Assembly (NCBI GenBank): GCA_017656425.1
Contig: JACDNV010000003.1
Span: forward strand, 166,294 to 230,293
Length of the DNA: 64,000 bases
DNA from: Candidatus Neomarinimicrobiota bacterium
GTDB taxonomy: Bacteria > Fidelibacterota > UBA2242 > B5-G15
Reading direction: 5' to 3'
The stretch's first letter is position 1. Every line of letters begins with the position of its first letter. The translations under genes were made by a program, and so were the position numbers. This document shows positions 3,908 to 17,281 of the stretch, one piece after another. The notes under the pieces are model-generated. The model made no database searches and had not been told where the DNA came from. It saw nothing but the letters and a program-made list of their open reading frames with translations.

Positions 3908-4939
<1,032 letters not shown>

Positions 4940-7157: not shown

Positions 7158-7823
7158 TCACAAATTCAATATATTTTGCCTGCTTACATACTCAATTGCT
7201 TTATAAGATGTTATCTTTGATAATCTGTTAACAATATCAACAACTATTTCCATCTGTCTGTTTATAATCTTTATAATCTCAAGTACCTTCTCATACTCAC
7301 CTTTATCAAAAAGGGGATATATCATTTCGAAATAACCGGACATTACCTGTAAAGGCTGATTTAACTCATGACATACAGCTCCCGTAAGCTCCAACATCCC
7401 TTTTAATTTTTCTCTTTCCATAAATTCATATTTAACCTTACTCTTTTCTAAAGCTAATAATAAAGTCTTCACAAATAATCCAACCTGTAAAGTCTCCCTT
7501 ATCAAATAATCATCTGCTCCATTCTTTAAAAAATCCATAATTAAACTTTCGCTATCCTTCATAGAAACAAGAACAACAACAGGTAAGTCTTTATATGTAC
7601 TCCTGAAAATTTTGAACCGCCCAATTCTATCGCCACTTTCAATAATTGAATCATATATAACTAAATCTATACCATTAAAAATATTTCGATTTTTGCTTTC
7701 CATATGATAAACACACCCAACAAAAAAGGTGATCTTCTTATAATTATTCAAAACCGACATTAAGGTTTTACTGAACTTATCATCATCTGATACTATTTTA
7801 ATTTTAAATGGATTATTCTTCAT
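7158..7823 (-). CDS. Receiver-like protein with histidine-kinase H-box but no ATPase domain
   Basis: This 221-residue protein has two parts. Residues 1-120 look like a receiver: acidic SDDDK, a candidate phospho-Asp in LVIYDSI (about 55) and MKNG-type loops; but the usual invariant Lys is replaced in DDYLIRE, where Arg stands at that place. Residues 125-215 are a HisKA-like dimerisation helix pair with the H-box GAVCHELNQPLQVMSGY (His near 153). No HATPase_c N, G1 or G2 box follows before the stop. The start overlaps cheR by 11 bp. It may be a phosphotransfer or docking protein, or a truncated kinase. The reading frame is clean and translation is coupled, which favours a functional protein. 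Confidence 0.7.
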   Translation of the reverse strand: MKNNPFKIKIVSDDDKFSKTLMSVLNNYKKITFFVGCVYHMESKNRNIFNGIDLVIYDSIIESGDRIGRFKIFRSTYKDLPVVVLVSMKDSESLIMDFLKNGADDYLIRETLQVGLFVKTLLLALEKSKVKYEFMEREKLKGMLELTGAVCHELNQPLQVMSGYFEMIYPLFDKGEYEKVLEIIKIINRQMEIVVDIVNRLSKITSYKAIEYVSRQNILNL

Positions 7824-8643
7824 CCTTTTCCACCGATGGCTTTAAATATACAGATGGCTTAACTACTTTAAAACCGACTTCCATACCAATAATACTCTCA
7901 GAATGTCCTAGAAAAAGGTATCCTCCTGGTTTCAATAATCTATATAATTCCCTTACAAGAGACTCCCTTATAGAACTGCCAAAATATATCATAACGTTTC
8001 TACAAAATATCACATCAAGAGGACCTTTAAGCGGTAAGGGGAAATAAGATAGATTCAATCTTCGAAAAATAATATAGTTCTTAACAAAATCTGTAACTTT
8101 ATATTTAACCTGACCATTTTCAATTGTCCGTATAAAAAATCTCTTCTGATAGTTGTACGGAACGTTCCGCATTTTCTCCTCATCATATTCACCCTTCTTA
8201 GCCCTATTTATAACATCAGTAGATATATCCGACCCAAGAATTCTTAAATCCATATCAGCATATGTGGGGATTGAATTTAAAATTGTAAAAGCAATACTAT
8301 AAGTTTCCTCGCCCGTAGAGCATCCTGCTGACCATATTCTAAATCTTCTATATCCACTATTGACCCAGCTTATCATTATTTCCTTAAGAAAATCAAAATG
8401 ATCAGCTTCTCTAAAGAAACTTGTAACATTTGTAGTGATCACATCAATCATCTGTATTATTTCATTACCCTCTCTATCATTAATCAGATACTCAAGGTAA
8501 TCATTATATGAATCTATCCTTAATGCCCTTAACCTTTTATTTAGCCTTGCACTTACTAATGCTTTTTTCTGATCAGTCAATCTTATACCACTTAGGTTAT
8601 ACACTATTTTTCTTAATTCTTCAAAAGTCTTATCATCTATCAT
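7813..8643 (-). CDS. cheR: Chemotaxis protein-glutamate O-methyltransferase CheR
   Basis: This 276-residue CheR has the helical N-terminal subdomain (about 1-75) and the SAM-binding catalytic domain. Motifs visible are NVTSFFRE, SAGCSTGEETYSIA (SAM loop, about 108-121), LGSDIS, and VIFCRNVMIYF (about 212-222). It methylates glutamates on the two chemoreceptors encoded just upstream. The gene starts 7 bp after the stop of the 683-residue receptor and overlaps the next gene by 11 bp. Confidence 0.97.
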   Translation of the reverse strand: MIDDKTFEELRKIVYNLSGIRLTDQKKALVSARLNKRLRALRIDSYNDYLEYLINDREGNEIIQMIDVITTNVTSFFREADHFDFLKEIMISWVNSGYRRFRIWSAGCSTGEETYSIAFTILNSIPTYADMDLRILGSDISTDVINRAKKGEYDEEKMRNVPYNYQKRFFIRTIENGQVKYKVTDFVKNYIIFRRLNLSYFPLPLKGPLDVIFCRNVMIYFGSSIRESLVRELYRLLKPGGYLFLGHSESIIGMEVGFKVVKPSVYLKPSVEKDEE

Positions 8644-8650
8644 CTACACT

Positions 8651-10702
8651 CTAAAAATCTTCTGAAATATCATCATCTTCTAAGCCAATTACTTTTTTAT
8701 CTTTTATTTGTAATCCTTTTTCTTTTGCCAAATTTTCCGAATCTTTAATTTCTACCAAATCTAATTTACCTTCCACTGACTCTGTACCATCGCCACTCAG
8801 TGTAAAGGATTCAATCATTGATGAAAGTTCCATTGCTTGAGAATTTAACTCTCCCGCTATACTTGCGGACTGTTCAGAGTTGGAAGCATTCTTTTGAGTA
8901 ACTGCGTTCATCTGATTTACGGAGATGTTCACCTGTTCAATACCTTCTGCCTGCTCCTTACTTGCAGCCGCTATCTCCTCAATTATCTGCAATACCTTAT
9001 TAGCACTCTCCGCTATCCTATCAAATACCTCTATCGTCCTGTTTACCTTCTCTACACCCCTGTCTGCACTCCTACCTGAACCCTCTATCATTACTGCCGT
9101 ATTCTTCGCCGCCTCCGCTGACCTCTGTGCTAAATTCCTTACCTCCTCTGCTACTACCGCAAACCCTTTCCCTGCTTCTCCTGCTCTCGCCGCCTCTACC
9201 GCCGCATTCAACGCTAACAGATTCGTCTGAAACGCTATCTCATCTATCGTGTTCACTATCTTACTCGTCTCTACCGAACTCTCCTTTATCTGCTTTATCG
9301 CTTCCTCTAACTCCCTTATTGCCTCTCTCCCCTCCTTTATTACCCTGTCTGACTCATTCATCATCACTCTCGCTTGACCTGTATTGTCTGCATTCTGCTT
9401 CACCATACTGCTCATCTCTTCCAAACTGCTCGATATCTCCTCAAGTGAACTCGCCTGCTCATTTGCACCCTCCGCCAAACTCTGACTGCCTGCAGCAATC
9501 TGCTTTGCAATCGAAACTACTCTACCAACCGCTATTTTTACCTGCTTCAGAGTCTCCTCAAGGTTATCCAATGCTTTATTTACATTATTCTTGAATTCTG
9601 CAAGCTCACCTTTATATTCACCTTTAACCCGAACTCTCATCTCTTTTTCAGCAACCCCTTCAAAAACTTCCATAACTTCTTTCATTGGAGTTATCAAAGC
9701 GTCAAGAGTTCTATTAATTCCTTCCACCAGACTTGCATATTCTCCTTTGAACTTTTCTGGATTACCTCTCCGACTTAAATCACCTTCTAATGCAGCATTA
9801 TTGAGCGTTTTTATCTCATCAATTACCCCTCTTAAGGAATCTATAGAAGAATTAATACCTCTTTTTAGTTCATCAAAATAGCCTTTGTATTCAATTCGAA
9901 TCTCATCAGGCAATTCACCATTACCAATCTGATTTATATAATCCCCTACAATTTCCAGTGGTTCAACAAGAGAATCTATCGTACTATTAACAACGACACC
10001 AATATCTTCAAAATCTACTCCAAGCCCTTTTTTATCAATCCTTTCATCAATATTTCCATTTTTTATTTCCCTTCCAAGGGCTTTAATCCTATCAACTAAT
10101 CTTTCAATGTTAGCTGTTATAACATTCCCAAGTAAAATAGTAATCACAACCATGGAAATGCCCATCAAAATAGAAAAATTCAATAAGGTTTTTCTCATAT
10201 TGGAGTGGGTTTCCTTTAATCCCGAAATGCTTGTCCCTGTTATTAAACTATAATTTTTCCTAAAAATTTCAATATCTGACTTCCTTAATATAACATTAGG
10301 AGCAATAAGTACTCCAACAGAATCAAAAGCATTTAAACTTATACTATCTGTAAATGTTGTATCTCTGTATAGAGCGAAAGATTCACCCTGCTCATTTCTT
10401 ACTTCAAGGTATTTTATCTCTTCAGATGAACCCACTCTATTAAAAACATCCTGGATAGACTCATAATCACTGAATTCGAGATATGTTTCTATAGACTGAA
10501 GAAGCATTTTAGACATTGTTTCATTTTGCTTTAAAAATAAATCCAGACTAGCTTTATATGTGCTTTTGGGAACTATAACACCAAATAAAATGGAAGCTGC
10601 AATTCCTATCATTAATATTACAATAACATATCTGCCTCTTATACTTATCCAGTACTTTAGTGTTAAAAACTGGGAGAAAAACTTTAATATCCTTTTAAAC
10701 AT
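8651..10702 (-). CDS. Methyl-accepting chemotaxis protein (receptor 1)
   Basis: Using the ATG at 10702 (GGGGG five bases upstream; a TTG at 10714 is the alternative), this receptor has 683 residues. TM1 is at about 25-45 and TM2 at about 175-195, enclosing a compact periplasmic domain of about 125 residues. HAMP-like repeats follow (about 200-395, with motifs such as [16 protein letters not shown]). The cytoplasmic hairpin contains the tip [20 protein letters not shown]. The codons for about 404-592 are identical base for base to those of receptor 2. The C-terminus ends DDDISEDF. It lies between a small exported protein gene and cheR. Confidence 0.95.
8928..9494. repeat. 567-bp perfect direct repeat, copy 1 (receptor signalling domain)
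   Basis: Every base from 8928 to 9494 matches 11627-12193 at a constant offset of 2699. The identity stops abruptly on both sides while the encoded proteins remain homologous. The segment encodes the HAMP-proximal helix, the receptor tip and most of the return helix of receptor 1. It is visibly richer in G+C than its surroundings: 33 of 60 bases in 9061-9120 are G or C. Confidence 0.97.
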
Positions 10703-10719
10703 TTTAACCCCCAAATCTA

Positions 10720-11268
10720 TTATTGAGTCTGCTTAGTAATTATATAATCAGGGCTCTCATTTATAGGAAAATTTAAAACCTGTCTTACCTGCTCATTTAC
10801 AACAATTTCCACTGGTTCAGTATTTTTTATATAAATTAATGCTCCATTTTCAAGCCAGCCCTCTTGCATAACTATTAAAGGTATTTTTTTCAGTTTACTC
10901 ATTTTGCATATATTTTTAATAATAAAAGGATCTGACATGGCCTCTGAAGGCCAGACAAATATAGCATTACATTGTTTTTCATTTACAAGAACTGTGAAAT
11001 CATTAAATATATCACCTGCAATCAATTTTGATTGGGTTACATAAATTCGCATGGACCTCGGTGGTGCCGTCTGCAATTGAGCAAGCCTGTTAATTACATT
11101 ATCAGGTAAACCATCCGATAATATTCCAAGAGTAATAATTACAAAATTTAATTGTTTAATAGTTTTTATAACTTTATCTACTGGTATATTCTTGTTTTGA
11201 GAATTAATTTGGTTAACTGTAAGAATAGTAAAAGCCAAAATACAAATGCTCAGATTTCTCAACCTCAC
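10720..11268 (-). CDS. Small exported protein between the chemoreceptors
   Basis: The likely start is a GTG at 11268 with GGGAGG five bases upstream, giving 182 residues; an ATG at 11283 would place the Shine-Dalgarno inside the gene. The first 24 residues ([20 protein letters not shown]) form a signal peptide. The rest is a soluble alpha/beta protein whose second half ([35 protein letters not shown]) resembles the C-terminal lobe of small ABC substrate-binding-type or DUF4154/YfiR-like proteins. No transporter gene is near. Its place between two receptor genes suggests a periplasmic partner that presents a ligand. That role is an inference. Confidence 0.6.
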
Positions 11269-11307
11269 ATCTACCTCCCGCATTTTTATTGTAATAATCC
11301 CAAATAA

Positions 11308-13935
11308 TTAAAAATCTTCCAGGTTCTCAAGATTATCATTAAAAGGGATTATCTCCTCTGGTTTTAGCTTCTTCTTCCCAACCATTTCCTCTTTCTTCTC
11401 TTCTATATCCATAATTTCTTTTTTTCTTGCTTTCTCTTTTACACCTTTTTCAATATTACTCTTTTTAATGACTTCCTTTTTTTCAAACCTTCCACTTAGT
11501 CTGAATGATCTTATCATTGTTGATAATTCCTGAGACTGAATATTTAACCTTCCTATAATATTTGCCACTTCTTCTGATTTCGACGCATTTCTCTGAGTCA
11601 CTGTATTCATCTGGCTAACAGCTACATTCACCTGTTCAATACCTTCTGCCTGCTCCTTACTTGCAGCCGCTATCTCCTCAATTATCTGCAATACCTTATT
11701 AGCACTCTCCGCTATCCTATCAAATACCTCTATCGTCCTGTTTACCTTCTCTACACCCCTGTCTGCACTCCTACCTGAACCCTCTATCATTACTGCCGTA
11801 TTCTTCGCCGCCTCCGCTGACCTCTGTGCTAAATTCCTTACCTCCTCTGCTACTACCGCAAACCCTTTCCCTGCTTCTCCTGCTCTCGCCGCCTCTACCG
11901 CCGCATTCAACGCTAACAGATTCGTCTGAAACGCTATCTCATCTATCGTGTTCACTATCTTACTCGTCTCTACCGAACTCTCCTTTATCTGCTTTATCGC
12001 TTCCTCTAACTCCCTTATTGCCTCTCTCCCCTCCTTTATTACCCTGTCTGACTCATTCATCATCACTCTCGCTTGACCTGTATTGTCTGCATTCTGCTTC
12101 ACCATACTGCTCATCTCTTCCAAACTGCTCGATATCTCCTCAAGTGAACTCGCCTGCTCATTTGCACCCTCCGCCAAACTCTGACTGCCTGCATAAACCT
12201 GATTTGTCGCTGACAGTACCTCACTGGTAACAGCTGAAACACTTGACAAAGCATCCTCCAAGGAATCCAGAGTTTTATTTATATCGTTTTTTAACTCATC
12301 AAATTTACCCATATATTCTCCTTTAATACGATGTGTAAAATCCTTTTTAGCTGCGCTATTCATAACCTCAGAAATTTCTTCTATGGGTGTTTTTATACTG
12401 CCAACAAGTCTGTTGAGACCCTCAACAAGGCTTATATATTTCCCTTCAAATTTACTCTCATCTATTTTTACATCAAGATTACCACTACTAATCTCTTCAA
12501 TCATATTGTTCAGATTCTCCGTGACATCTAATAAAACCTGCTTCATCCTTGACAATGCTCTTCCAATAGTATCCTTATCTGATCTTATATTAACTTCTAC
12601 ACTTAAATCTCCGTGAGAAATACTACGAATTTTTTCAGCCTGATCTCTAAGAGATGAAATTAAAGACCTTAAACTATCAGCTAATAAACCAATTTCATCA
12701 TCAGCCTGGTAATCCACTTCTTGATCCAGATCCCCCATTGATATAGCTTTCAATGTCCTATTAAAATATTCAATGGGCTTTAATACTTTTGTCTTGTATC
12801 TTCTAGACATAGTTACCGCTGTTGCAAAAAATACAAAGGTTATAATGACTATAATCCCTAGTGTTACCCATTTAACAAAGCTGACACCACCACTGGCAGA
12901 GATAAAATCACGTTCAAAAGCATTTGCAACAATTACCCAGTCCCATGGTTCAAAATATTTTATGCCGGCTAAATATCTCTCGGAAGATTTTTGTTCACCA
13001 AGCGAATAATCAATGAATAATATATCATTTTTCTTATCAATCGATTCAGTGATCATTTTCTGAATAATATACCTGTCCTTATTGTCTTTCATACTCCACA
13101 GGATTTTGCCAGTTTCAAATGAGCCACCAGAAATTAAACATCTACCCCTATCGATCCCTTTCCCCTTTATTATGGATATATATCCATTCTTTCCAACATT
13201 TGTACTTTTAATCAGCTCTACCAAATCTGTCAAATCATATCCTTTAGTAATAGAAATCATACCAATTACAGAACCTTCATTTGTTGATAGTGGCATATAA
13301 GCATCTATTAACATGGTTTTATTATTTATTCTATAGGTATAATAATTTTCACCTTTCAGAATATTAGTAATTATTGGATTTGCTATTCCTGATTGGCTCT
13401 TGTTCGGGATCAACACCCCAAGATTCTTCAGATCTTCATTATTATTTGTAGCAACCTTAATCATATTTCCATCTATATCTATTCTTTGGTAAAAAGCAAC
13501 TTCTCCATCTGTGTCAGAAAGTCTCGCAAACAAAGGGTTAATCGTACTTAAGTTATTAATACTATTCAAAACTATTTCAGAAACTTTTATCTCGGGTAAG
13601 TTGACATCACGTACCACCTTACCACTATAGTCTTTCAAACCCCAAGTATGTTGTACAGAAGAATTAACATCCAATTCTTCTAAATTCAGTAAAATTTTTA
13701 TCTTATCAAGGTCTCTATCTGCATTGTTCCTAATAGATTCTTCTCTATCTTCAATTAATTTATACACAAGGTTAGCGACTTGTTCTATATTTAATTTCAT
13801 TAAGGATTTATTTTGTACAATATTAAACACATCACCTTTTTGATTTATTAAACTAAGTATCAATACAAAAATTACAACAGACATGAGTACAAATAAGGTT
13901 ATATAAATCCATCTGTTTTGCAATGAAAGCTTCAT
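11308..13935 (-). CDS. Methyl-accepting chemotaxis protein with large periplasmic sensor (receptor 2)
   Basis: This 875-residue receptor has TM1 at about 12-33, a periplasmic sensor of about 310 residues typical of double Cache domains (motifs [23 protein letters not shown] and [14 protein letters not shown]), and TM2 at about 352-373. A HAMP domain follows (about 374-430), then further HAMP-like repeats and the signalling hairpin. Codons for about 582-770 are identical to those of receptor 1. The tail is Lys/Glu-rich and ends NLENLEDF. It is the first receptor after cheW. dCache receptors usually bind amino acids or organic acids; the ligand here is not deducible. Confidence 0.95.
11627..12193. 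repeat. 567-bp perfect direct repeat, copy 2 (receptor signalling domain)
   Basis: This is the second copy of the segment at 8928-9494, in the same orientation, inside receptor 2. On the coding strand it uses AGG, GAG and AAG far more than the AGA, GAA and AAA that dominate the rest of both genes. Recent gene conversion or import of one copy is the simplest explanation. Confidence 0.97.
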
Positions 13936-14039: not shown

Positions 14040-14630
14040 TTACTTCTTCTTCTTTTTAGCAGACTTCCCTTTTTCAGCCTTCTCCGCCCCCGTCTCCAGC
14101 TTATCTTTAATGTCCGCAATCTTGGTAACCTCATCTGTACTCAAAATTTTGTCAATATTCAATAGTATCTTGATACCATCTTTCGCCTTTGCCATTCCCA
14201 ATATGAAACTGGTATCTATTTCAGCTCCAAAGGAAGGGGCATCCTCTATATCATTTGCCTCAATATCAAGAACCTCAGAAACATTATCAACGAGTAATCC
14301 AGCCTGTACAAGGGTATCATTTCTATATACGTCGACCACAATTATACAAGTATCCTCGGTAATCTCAGCCTCCTCCAGTCCAAATTTTTTCCTTAAGTCA
14401 ACAATTGGAATAATCTTTCCACGAAGATTTATAACCCCCCTTACAAAATCGGGAGTCCTTGGTACATAGGTTATATCCATTACTCCAATTATTTCTCTAA
14501 CCTTTAGTATTTCAATCCCATACTCTTCATTGCTAAGTTTAAAAGTCAAATATTTCCCCGCCCTGCTTTTGTTTCTTTCGTTTTTTGTATTTTTTACTTC
14601 TAACTCTTCATTTTCAACATTAATGGGCAT
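14040..14630 (-). CDS. cheW: Chemotaxis coupling protein CheW
   Basis: This 196-residue CheW has a charged N-terminal extension (about 25 residues) and then the CheW domain: KYLTFKLSNEEYGIEILKVREI, seen in parts as LTFKLSNEEYGIEIL and VREIIG, followed by VPRTPDFVRGVINLRGKIIPIVDL (PDFVRGVINLRGK is the diagnostic stretch). The last 15 residues are mostly lysine (KGKSAKKKKK), an unusual basic tail. It links CheA to both receptors. Its Shine-Dalgarno (GGAGG) lies in the last codons of cheA, and the two genes are separated by 2 bp. Confidence 0.95.
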   Translation of the reverse strand: MPINVENEELEVKNTKNERNKSRAGKYLTFKLSNEEYGIEILKVREIIGVMDITYVPRTPDFVRGVINLRGKIIPIVDLRKKFGLEEAEITEDTCIIVVDVYRNDTLVQAGLLVDNVSEVLDIEANDIEDAPSFGAEIDTSFILGMAKAKDGIKILLNIDKILSTDEVTKIADIKDKLETGAEKAEKGKSAKKKKK

Positions 14631-14632
14631 AA

Positions 14633-17281
14633 TTACCTCCCAATCACCTTTTCAATTACATTTGACTCTCTCGATAATCTTATAAGTCCTGCAACATCAA
14701 TTATAAGCCCAACTCGACCATCTGGCATAATAGCACCACCAGAAATGCCAGGGACTTTTTTTAACAAAGTACCAAGCGGTTTTATCACTACCTGTTGCTG
14801 ACCAATTAAATCATCAGCAAGAATGCCAACTTTTATATTCTCTGATTCGACTACAACAACAAGAGCATTGTAGGGGTCTTCCTTGGCATTTTCAATATCA
14901 AAGAGCTTATAAAGCCTGATAAGAGGTAAAAGCTCTCCATGAAAAGAGATAATCTCGCCTTTTTTCATTAATGTACTTATATCATTATTTCTTGGACGAA
15001 AAGTAGTAACAACCGAAAGTGTCGGTATGATATACCGCTCACTTCCAACTTTAATTACCATTCCATCAATAATCGCTAGTGTAAGGGGTAAAATTAACCG
15101 AAAAGTCGTACCTTCACCAGACTTAGTATAAACATCAATCCTGCCTCTTATTGACTCAATATTTCTCTTAACCACGTCCAGACCTACACCCCTTCCAGAT
15201 ACGTCTGTTACAACATCAGCAGTAGAAAAACCTGGGGAAAAGATCAAATTCCATACTTCATTATCGGATAATTCTTTATCTTCCTTAACAAGTCCCCTTT
15301 CAATAGCTTTTCTTAATATTTTGTCTCTATCAAGTCCCTTACCATCATCTGAAACTTCTATTATGATATTGCCACCTCTGTGGTAAGCTCTGAGTTCAAT
15401 TTTTCCATACTCTGGTTTGCCCCTTTTTATACGTTCCTCAGGATTATCTTCTATACCGTGATCAATTGAATTTCTTATCATATGAACAAGAGGGTCACCA
15501 ATTTTGTCAACAACCGATTTATCAAGTTCTGTGTCCTCACCATAGGTTACAAATTCAATCTTCTTCCCCGCTTTCTTGGATAAATCACGTACCAATCTTG
15601 CCATTTTTTGAAAAGTAGATTTTATCGGGATCATTCTTAATGAAGTACCGAGCTCCTGTAATTCCCGTGTGATTTTATCAAGTTGCGAAACATATTTTGC
15701 AAGCCTTGGTGATTCAATACTTTTTACTTCAGGTGCTTGAGTAACCATTGATTCAGCAATAACCAACTCACCTATTGTATCTACTAACCTATCAAGTCTA
15801 TCAGCATCGATTTTTATAATCTCTTTCAGCTTTACTTTTTGTACCTCAACATCAGCTTTTTCCACTTCAGGGCTGACATCAGGTGCTATATGTTGATCAT
15901 CTTTGCTTTTTTCATCCTGGGCCGGCTCTTCAACGACAGTGGCAGTCTCTTCATCCCTATCCTTAGGCTGTTCTTCTTTAACTTTCTTTTGTCCCAAAAC
16001 TGGTTTCTTTTCTTCTACCCTTTCCTCCACTTCTATAATACCTTCATCAACAAGCCTGATTAAATTTTCTATATCTTTTATAAGTTGATAGAATTCTCGC
16101 CCTTGAGGCTTAACTACTCCTGTTTTTGTAACCTCTTCAAGATCCTTTATCATTTCTTTCAACTTATCGACAGCTCTAAAAACCAAATCAATATTTTCCC
16201 CTTCCAATACTACTTTACCGTTTCTGGCTTTATCCAGAAGATTCTCAGCTCTATGGGACAACTCTTGTATTTCTTTTAACCCGATAAAGCCTGCAACTCC
16301 TTTAATTGTATGAAAAGATCGAAATACAGCATTTAATGCTTCAGCGTTCGAAGGGTCATTCTCAATTGTCAAAAGATTCAAATCAGCATTTTCAATATGC
16401 TCATTTGCTTCGTTAATAAAATCAGGTAACAACTCTACATCTACACTGTAAGGCTCTACGACTTCGAATTCTTCCTCTGGTTCTTCCTCTGGTTCTTCAA
16501 TCAGTATCGGTTCCGATTTTTCCTCATTTACAATTTCTTCCTTTTTTCTCTTTTCCTTCTTCCTTTTTTTCTTCTTTTTCACCTTCCTTTCTTTTTTATC
16601 TCCAGGTTCCAATAAACCTATTATCTCTTTGACATGAGTGTAAGCATCTCTCTGCCCTGAATAATATTCAACAACCTCTTCACACCAGTCTTTGACCCTA
16701 TATAAAATATCAACATCAATATCTTCATTATCCGATAAAAAATCCTCCAGTGCATGACAGACTTTATTCAGATCATCTACTCCTACAAGCCCCGATTCAC
16801 CTTTTATTGTATGAATTATTCTCTTTAATTGATTTAGATCTTCCTGTTTACCAGTATTTTCATAATCAAGAATTAAATTTTCGATTTCCTGAAGATTACC
16901 TTCAAGAGATGTGATAAACTCCTCAAATATGCTTTTATCAACCACTTCATTATATTCGAATACTTCTTTCCTTTTATTTTTACCTCTTTCACTATCACGA
17001 ACAATTGAATTTATAAGAGTTTGCAGATCTGAAAATCTTTTTGAGACTTCATTAAAAACCTCTGCAGGACTATCTGTTTCCCCAACTATTATCTTCTCAA
17101 TAGTAGCTTTAAGCCACTCAACATGATCATTAATTTGTTTATTTTTTAAATCAGAGCTCAGTTTTTCAACCTTATCCAGATCATTTAAAATTTCACCAAG
17201 AACAGGCAGATCTGAAACATCGGTAAGAACAATTTTTTCTCCAAGCCTTTCCAATAGGCTAACTAAATCATTTTTACTCAT
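14633..17281 (-). CDS. cheA: Chemotaxis sensor histidine kinase CheA with two HPt domains
   Basis: This 882-residue CheA has, in order: a helical N-terminus; HPt1 with phospho-His in IIHTIKGESGLVG (about 155); a very basic stretch of mostly Lys/Arg/Glu (about 228-252); HPt2 with RSFHTIKGVAGFIG (His about 323); an acidic linker; the dimerisation helix KIDADRLDRLVDTIGELV (about 490); the ATPase with HMIRNSIDHGIE (N box, about 600), DDGKGLD (G1) and GRGVGLDVVKRN (G2); and a C-terminal CheW-like domain (about 740-880). It phosphorylates the CheY and CheB proteins encoded downstream. It is the first gene of the minus-strand locus, with a weak TTGACA-type promoter upstream. Confidence 0.97.
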   Translation of the reverse strand: MSKNDLVSLLERLGEKIVLTDVSDLPVLGEILNDLDKVEKLSSDLKNKQINDHVEWLKATIEKIIVGETDSPAEVFNEVSKRFSDLQTLINSIVRDSERGKNKRKEVFEYNEVVDKSIFEEFITSLEGNLQEIENLILDYENTGKQEDLNQLKRIIHTIKGESGLVGVDDLNKVCHALEDFLSDNEDIDVDILYRVKDWCEEVVEYYSGQRDAYTHVKEIIGLLEPGDKKERKVKKKKKRKKEKRKKEEIVNEEKSEPILIEEPEEEPEEEFEVVEPYSVDVELLPDFINEANEHIENADLNLLTIENDPSNAEALNAVFRSFHTIKGVAGFIGLKEIQELSHRAENLLDKARNGKVVLEGENIDLVFRAVDKLKEMIKDLEEVTKTGVVKPQGREFYQLIKDIENLIRLVDEGIIEVEERVEEKKPVLGQKKVKEEQPKDRDEETATVVEEPAQDEKSKDDQHIAPDVSPEVEKADVEVQKVKLKEIIKIDADRLDRLVDTIGELVIAESMVTQAPEVKSIESPRLAKYVSQLDKITRELQELGTSLRMIPIKSTFQKMARLVRDLSKKAGKKIEFVTYGEDTELDKSVVDKIGDPLVHMIRNSIDHGIEDNPEERIKRGKPEYGKIELRAYHRGGNIIIEVSDDGKGLDRDKILRKAIERGLVKEDKELSDNEVWNLIFSPGFSTADVVTDVSGRGVGLDVVKRNIESIRGRIDVYTKSGEGTTFRLILPLTLAIIDGMVIKVGSERYIIPTLSVVTTFRPRNNDISTLMKKGEIISFHGELLPLIRLYKLFDIENAKEDPYNALVVVVESENIKVGILADDLIGQQQVVIKPLGTLLKKVPGISGGAIMPDGRVGLIIDVAGLIRLSRESNVIEKVIGR

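Follow-up and report, generated by a model that had tools for sequence, protein, structure and literature searches.

Two neighbouring chemoreceptor genes in the window, the 64,000-nucleotide stretch of DNA analysed here, share a 567-bp tract, and it is probable (about 0.8) that this tract was recently copied between them by gene conversion and that it contains an older hairpin module specific to the family. A pairwise base comparison of positions 8928-9494 in receptor A and 11627-12193 in receptor B, both on the reverse strand, gave 0 mismatches at a fixed offset of 2699, bearing out to the base a preliminary description of this DNA. The tract, delimited in receptor A by the exact match together with an unusual codon dialect and in receptor B by the exact match, corresponds to codons 408-595 of A and 582-769 of B. 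Directly outside it, identity collapses to about 20 of 50 bases at the 5' edge and about 31 of 50 at the 3' edge. The flanks had been described as diverged, and indeed the proteins share 28% of their residues before the tract and 44% after it. At shared residues, third-position identity is 1.000 in the tract compared to 0.46-0.47 in the flanks, with 0 synonymous differences between the two copies, so that synonymous-site identity rises far above that of the flanks and does so with abrupt edges, as gene conversion would produce. The further search for identical copies that had been proposed found no third copy in the organism's own genome (2.8 Mb, 99.7% complete), making the pair unique there; moreover, no other exact repeat of at least 200 bp joining two genes at most 20 kb apart was found in a 1.39-Mb sample of this genome, and no exact common tracts of at least 40 bp were found in the tandem receptors of relatives.

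Receptor genes and the part encoded by the tract

Receptor A (8651-10714, reverse strand, 687 aa) contains a sensor region, a HAMP_2 pair and an MCP signalling domain (Pfam: MCPsignal 8.6e-48, HAMP_2 1e-32; a CHASE8 match lies under its cut-off). Receptor B (11308-13935, reverse strand, 875 aa) combines a Cache_3-Cache_2 sensor with HAMP, HAMP_2 and MCP signalling domains. Their PF00015 scores of 162.9 and 151.1 bits, against a curated cut-off of 34.6, mark both as probable MCPs. They are separated by a 187-aa open reading frame without a Pfam match (10720-11283, reverse strand) and stand among chemotaxis genes that read as cheA, cheW, cheR, cheB and cheD, with cheX added by Pfam. A cheW-like (14040-14630) and a cheA-like gene (14633-17281) were named from their translations, and a cheR-like gene (7813-8643) adjoins receptor A, as one likewise adjoins the receptor of the sister genus; these three genes too are on the reverse strand. 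The product of positions 7158-7823, beside cheR, is 221 aa long and combines a HisKA dimerisation domain with a receiver-like part; an ATPase domain was not found in it, and a similar gene adjoins cheR in the sister genus too. Both receptors end in EDF (8651-8662 and 11308-11319) though their tails otherwise differ, an ending that CheR or CheB may use for docking. The genome holds a single further receptor of a different type, apparently composed of a sugar-binding-protein-like region and an MCP signalling domain (L034:3115-5448, contig C6) and without the codon dialect.

The tract aligns gaplessly with the signalling region of E. coli Tsr (PDB 1qu7, 6s1k), spanning Tsr residues ~286 to 473. 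Mapped in this way, the tract takes in the hairpin tip together with the three N-terminal methylation sites and leaves out the C-terminal ones (Tsr 493 and 502); Tsr is from another organism, and the receptor A residues equivalent to its C-terminal sites are Q and N. Judged from this alignment, the tract encodes the first methylation helix and the part of the signalling bundle that is distal to the membrane, which is less than the whole domain. Earlier, the tract had been said to cover the tip and the methylation helices, which is right for the tip and the N-terminal sites and wrong for the C-terminal ones.

Gene conversion between adjacent paralogous genes occurs in bacteria, and the present case resembles it in its short exact tract, abrupt edges, diverged flanks and location in one cluster; it differs in that the tract coincides with an unusual synonymous composition shared by a second genus. 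The exact tract, its abrupt edges and the lack of a third copy in the genome support gene conversion between the two receptors, as previously proposed. Homologous recombination, as gene conversion or an equivalent segmental replacement, would have copied the 567 bp between genes 2.7 kb apart, and with them the N-terminal methylation sites, the putative CheA/CheW-contacting hairpin tip and most of the returning helix. Both receptors would thereby address the same CheA/CheW array with different sensors, in line with the earlier proposal of different sensors on one CheA/CheW-facing part, and this common interface is probably the benefit of the copying. Because the segments with the codon dialect, codons 413-588 in A and 572-762 in B (equivalent to A codons 398-588), are each compatible with the tract, the direction of copying is not readable from them.

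A related arrangement has been described in Campylobacter jejuni, whose Tlp2, Tlp3 and Tlp4 have sensor regions about 30% identical and signalling domains described as identical by the authors (PMC9769880). That case also concerns paralogous receptors with diverged sensors and an identical signalling part. There, a duplication was followed by divergence of the sensors, and the identity extends to entire signalling domains (PMC9769880), as taken from the paper's description rather than from DNA; here, identity is confined to a tract inside the domain, the rest of the tails is different, and the tract shows a codon dialect of its own. Our literature search found the Campylobacter case and no report of tract-restricted codon usage in receptors.

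Codon dialect of the tract in two genera

The G+C content of the tract is 0.487 compared to 0.338 in the window (33 of 60 bases at 9061-9120), and the tract is the G+C-richest part of both receptor genes. Its GC3 is 0.51, whereas host codon usage would give 0.26 (z = +7.6); the values in both flanks are those of the host. At four-fold sites the tract has A 0.41, C 0.01, G 0.44 and T 0.13 (85% A/G), compared to T 0.43-0.47 in the regions before it; 87% of its isoleucine codons are ATA, and GCG/GCA, ACG, ATA, GTA, AGT, AAG, GAG, CAG, AGG and TTG are favoured. This composition is unlike that of the host. The comparison with flanking receptor DNA, suggested in the preliminary description, therefore gave a clear difference, and the claim that the tract has its own codon usage holds in so far as its composition is unlike both flanks. 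Its characterisation as higher G+C is a misdescription, since C is nearly absent; the bias is towards synonymous purines at third positions, G above all.

In half of the genome (1.39 Mb; 1,094 open reading frames, 11,319 windows) the top rank falls to the two receptors both for purine thirds (z 6.5; next gene 3.7) and for G thirds (z 10.6; next gene 7.7). After the receptors, the highest G-third values belong to three neighbouring genes elsewhere in the genome (L222:12055-20000, contig C9; z 5.8-7.7). A general trait of receptors was rejected as the source of the dialect: among 76 other receptors, encoded in the phylum, in other bacteria or on viral contigs, the mean difference between block and flanks is near 0, and none has 85% purine at four-fold sites. 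Next-base context and amino-acid make-up were likewise rejected, conditioning on the following base leaving the bias intact. An antisense gene does not account for it either, as the longest antisense frames are matched in dialect-preserving shuffles (18/60 and 14/60 reach their length); a 101-aa antisense frame common to both genera is expected because the sense protein is conserved. No known RNA family was found in the tract. The blocks of both genera fold far less than host-coded versions (z about +5), an effect wholly due to the dialect.

The family was sampled with the organism's own genome and one genome of another genus (G001). Beside its cheR gene, the latter has a receptor that matches the block with 79% DNA identity and about 78-79% protein identity, and this receptor shows the same dialect, with A 0.38, C 0.05, G 0.38 and T 0.18 at four-fold sites and 93% ATA, compared to T 0.38 and 40% ATA in its own flanks. 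The block is the top purine-third window among 2,854 in 349 kb of this genome. Within the organism's own genome the two copies are 100% identical and are 78% identical to the single G001 receptor, from which, there being only one, orthologues of A and B are indistinguishable. Elsewhere, purine/pyrimidine agreement between the genera is 0.523 against 0.500 by chance (67 other orthologues, 5,722 shared four-fold sites), indicating that synonymous purine/pyrimidine memory has been lost between them, whereas purines occupy 82-88% of four-fold sites in the block in both genomes. Four-fold identity between the two blocks is 0.446, near the 0.369 expected from composition, which suggests that individual sites turned over and the regional composition stayed.

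In six relatives, contigs end close upstream of the orthologous receptor, and hidden repeats of the block were considered as the cause. This was rejected for G002, G003 and G061, where the contig ends match repeated HAMP stretches instead of the block; in the other three relatives, no second copy of the block was found. The repeated HAMP stretches in relatives' receptors are 79-97% identical in DNA where the contigs break (the end of contig C145 in G003, the start of C166 in G061, and the end of C33 and the start of C43 in G002).

A probable older hairpin module within the tract

Within the tract lies an inner hairpin module at 8957-9424 in receptor A (codons about 431-586) and, by the fixed offset of 2699, at 11656-12123 in receptor B (codons about 605-760), both on the reverse strand. 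It was delimited, with approximate edges, by the dialect segment of the sister genus and by a departure in protein sequence. In a comparison with eight receptor orthologues from the order and the phylum, both genera are set apart from their order relatives in only two segments, A codons about 435-490 and about 540-580. For codons 450-475, identity between A and the others is 0.23, compared to 0.41 among the others and 0.60 between A and the sister genus; at codons 555-580 the corresponding values are 0.17, 0.41 and 0.80. No gap of this kind is seen at codons 405-430 and 585-610. The best-fit dialect segment of the sister genus, A codons 431-586, is nearly the same stretch as the protein departure, and it is roughly even around the hairpin tip (codon 513). 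In a tree of the block the two genera are joined on a long branch (support 100/100); no such branch is found in the tree of the neighbouring cheR, and the receptor tails do not join the two genera.

These sequence comparisons point to a hairpin module that was replaced, or that diverged from the order's version, before the genera split. Replacement by another version would explain the protein discordance, which may instead have come from fast evolution in place; the module would have originated in the family ancestor, or been brought into it, as one unit. It would have been particular to the family and already present before the recent copying between receptors A and B, which was a separate event.

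Origin of the tract and persistence of the dialect

The composition of the tract had been read as higher G+C and hence as a sign that one copy was imported. A single recent foreign import into one receptor of this genome, subsequently copied to the other, would explain the strong composition contrast and the abrupt edges, and transfer between the two genera does occur. Nevertheless, we consider it unlikely: the bias lies in purine thirds, and the orthologous block of the other genus, at the same place, has the same dialect despite synonymous saturation between the genera, with the divergence in protein and at four-fold sites described above. Nor was a donor found in 245 phylum genomes, viral contigs and plasmids, and the purine level was matched by none of the 76 comparison receptors. 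A donor may exist elsewhere, as a wider scan of genome contigs relied on patterns with poor coverage of the block. A viral or plasmid origin was also rejected, the best viral-contig match being 47% and all plasmid matches being under 60% identity. A single recent import is thus not the simplest reading; import, if any, would be old, at the level of the family, or would have happened more than once.

An assembly artefact, in which one locus was assembled twice or two diverged copies were merged, is very unlikely. The 567-bp repeat is longer than short reads, and its exact identity could partly reflect assembler collapse of near-identical copies, but the copies sit in a single 230-kb contig without N, with flanks that are unrelated on either side, and the two genes carry different sensors; a merge could erase a few differences, not create a dialect that is seen in the sister genus too. 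That GC-biased gene conversion raised the G+C content of a repeatedly converting tract is hardly credible, even though the tract is the G+C-richest part of both genes, because at four-fold sites only G rises (0.44) and C is depleted (0.01), and G+C is not consistently raised in the other exact repeats of the genome. One such repeat, an exact 588-bp tandem repeat in a secreted protein that carries a type IX secretion tail (L098:3615-4202 and 4350-4937, contig C5), has a G+C content of 0.44 compared to 0.30 in its flanks, with a four-fold composition equal to theirs. Tails of this type, present in genes other than the receptors, suggest a Bacteroidota-related phylum. Receptor signalling tips are highly conserved, yet an old duplication whose signalling part was kept by protein-level selection alone has a negligible probability, since protein selection does not fix synonymous sites and the tract lacks any synonymous difference. 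Recent gene conversion of a tract containing an older module is therefore our preferred reading.

As for the persistence of the dialect, neutral vertical descent should have lost it alongside other synonymous memory. Selection on the mRNA or DNA of the segment has close to an even chance of being what kept it. Between the genera, protein identity is 79% in the block and 60% in cheR, compared to 62-72% and 49-53% in other pairs. Set against cheR, the block has thus diverged as vertical descent would predict, which favours selection. More specifically, and tentatively, the synonymous sites of the hairpin may be selected for a purine-rich, weakly folding messenger, or as DNA with a role in recombination, across two genera. 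Donor-derived usage through old or repeated import is a plausible account, held at less than even odds. DNA does move between these genera, making repeated import possible: their copies of a DUF4384 gene have 97.4% identity across 959 bp (L101:851-1808 and L113:15310-16268), a near-identity that, given the synonymous saturation of other genes, indicates recent transfer. Some other cause of the persistence is rather improbable.

Receptors with different sensors need to match a single kinase array, and this cassette shows how the fit of differing sensors to one array is apparently kept by exact copying between neighbours. Identical signalling domains are already known from Campylobacter; the unusual element is a regional codon dialect that has persisted while synonymous sites became saturated between two genera. 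The explanation would lie either in a donor pool that goes on supplying the module to this family or in selection on the synonymous sites of the receptor hairpin.
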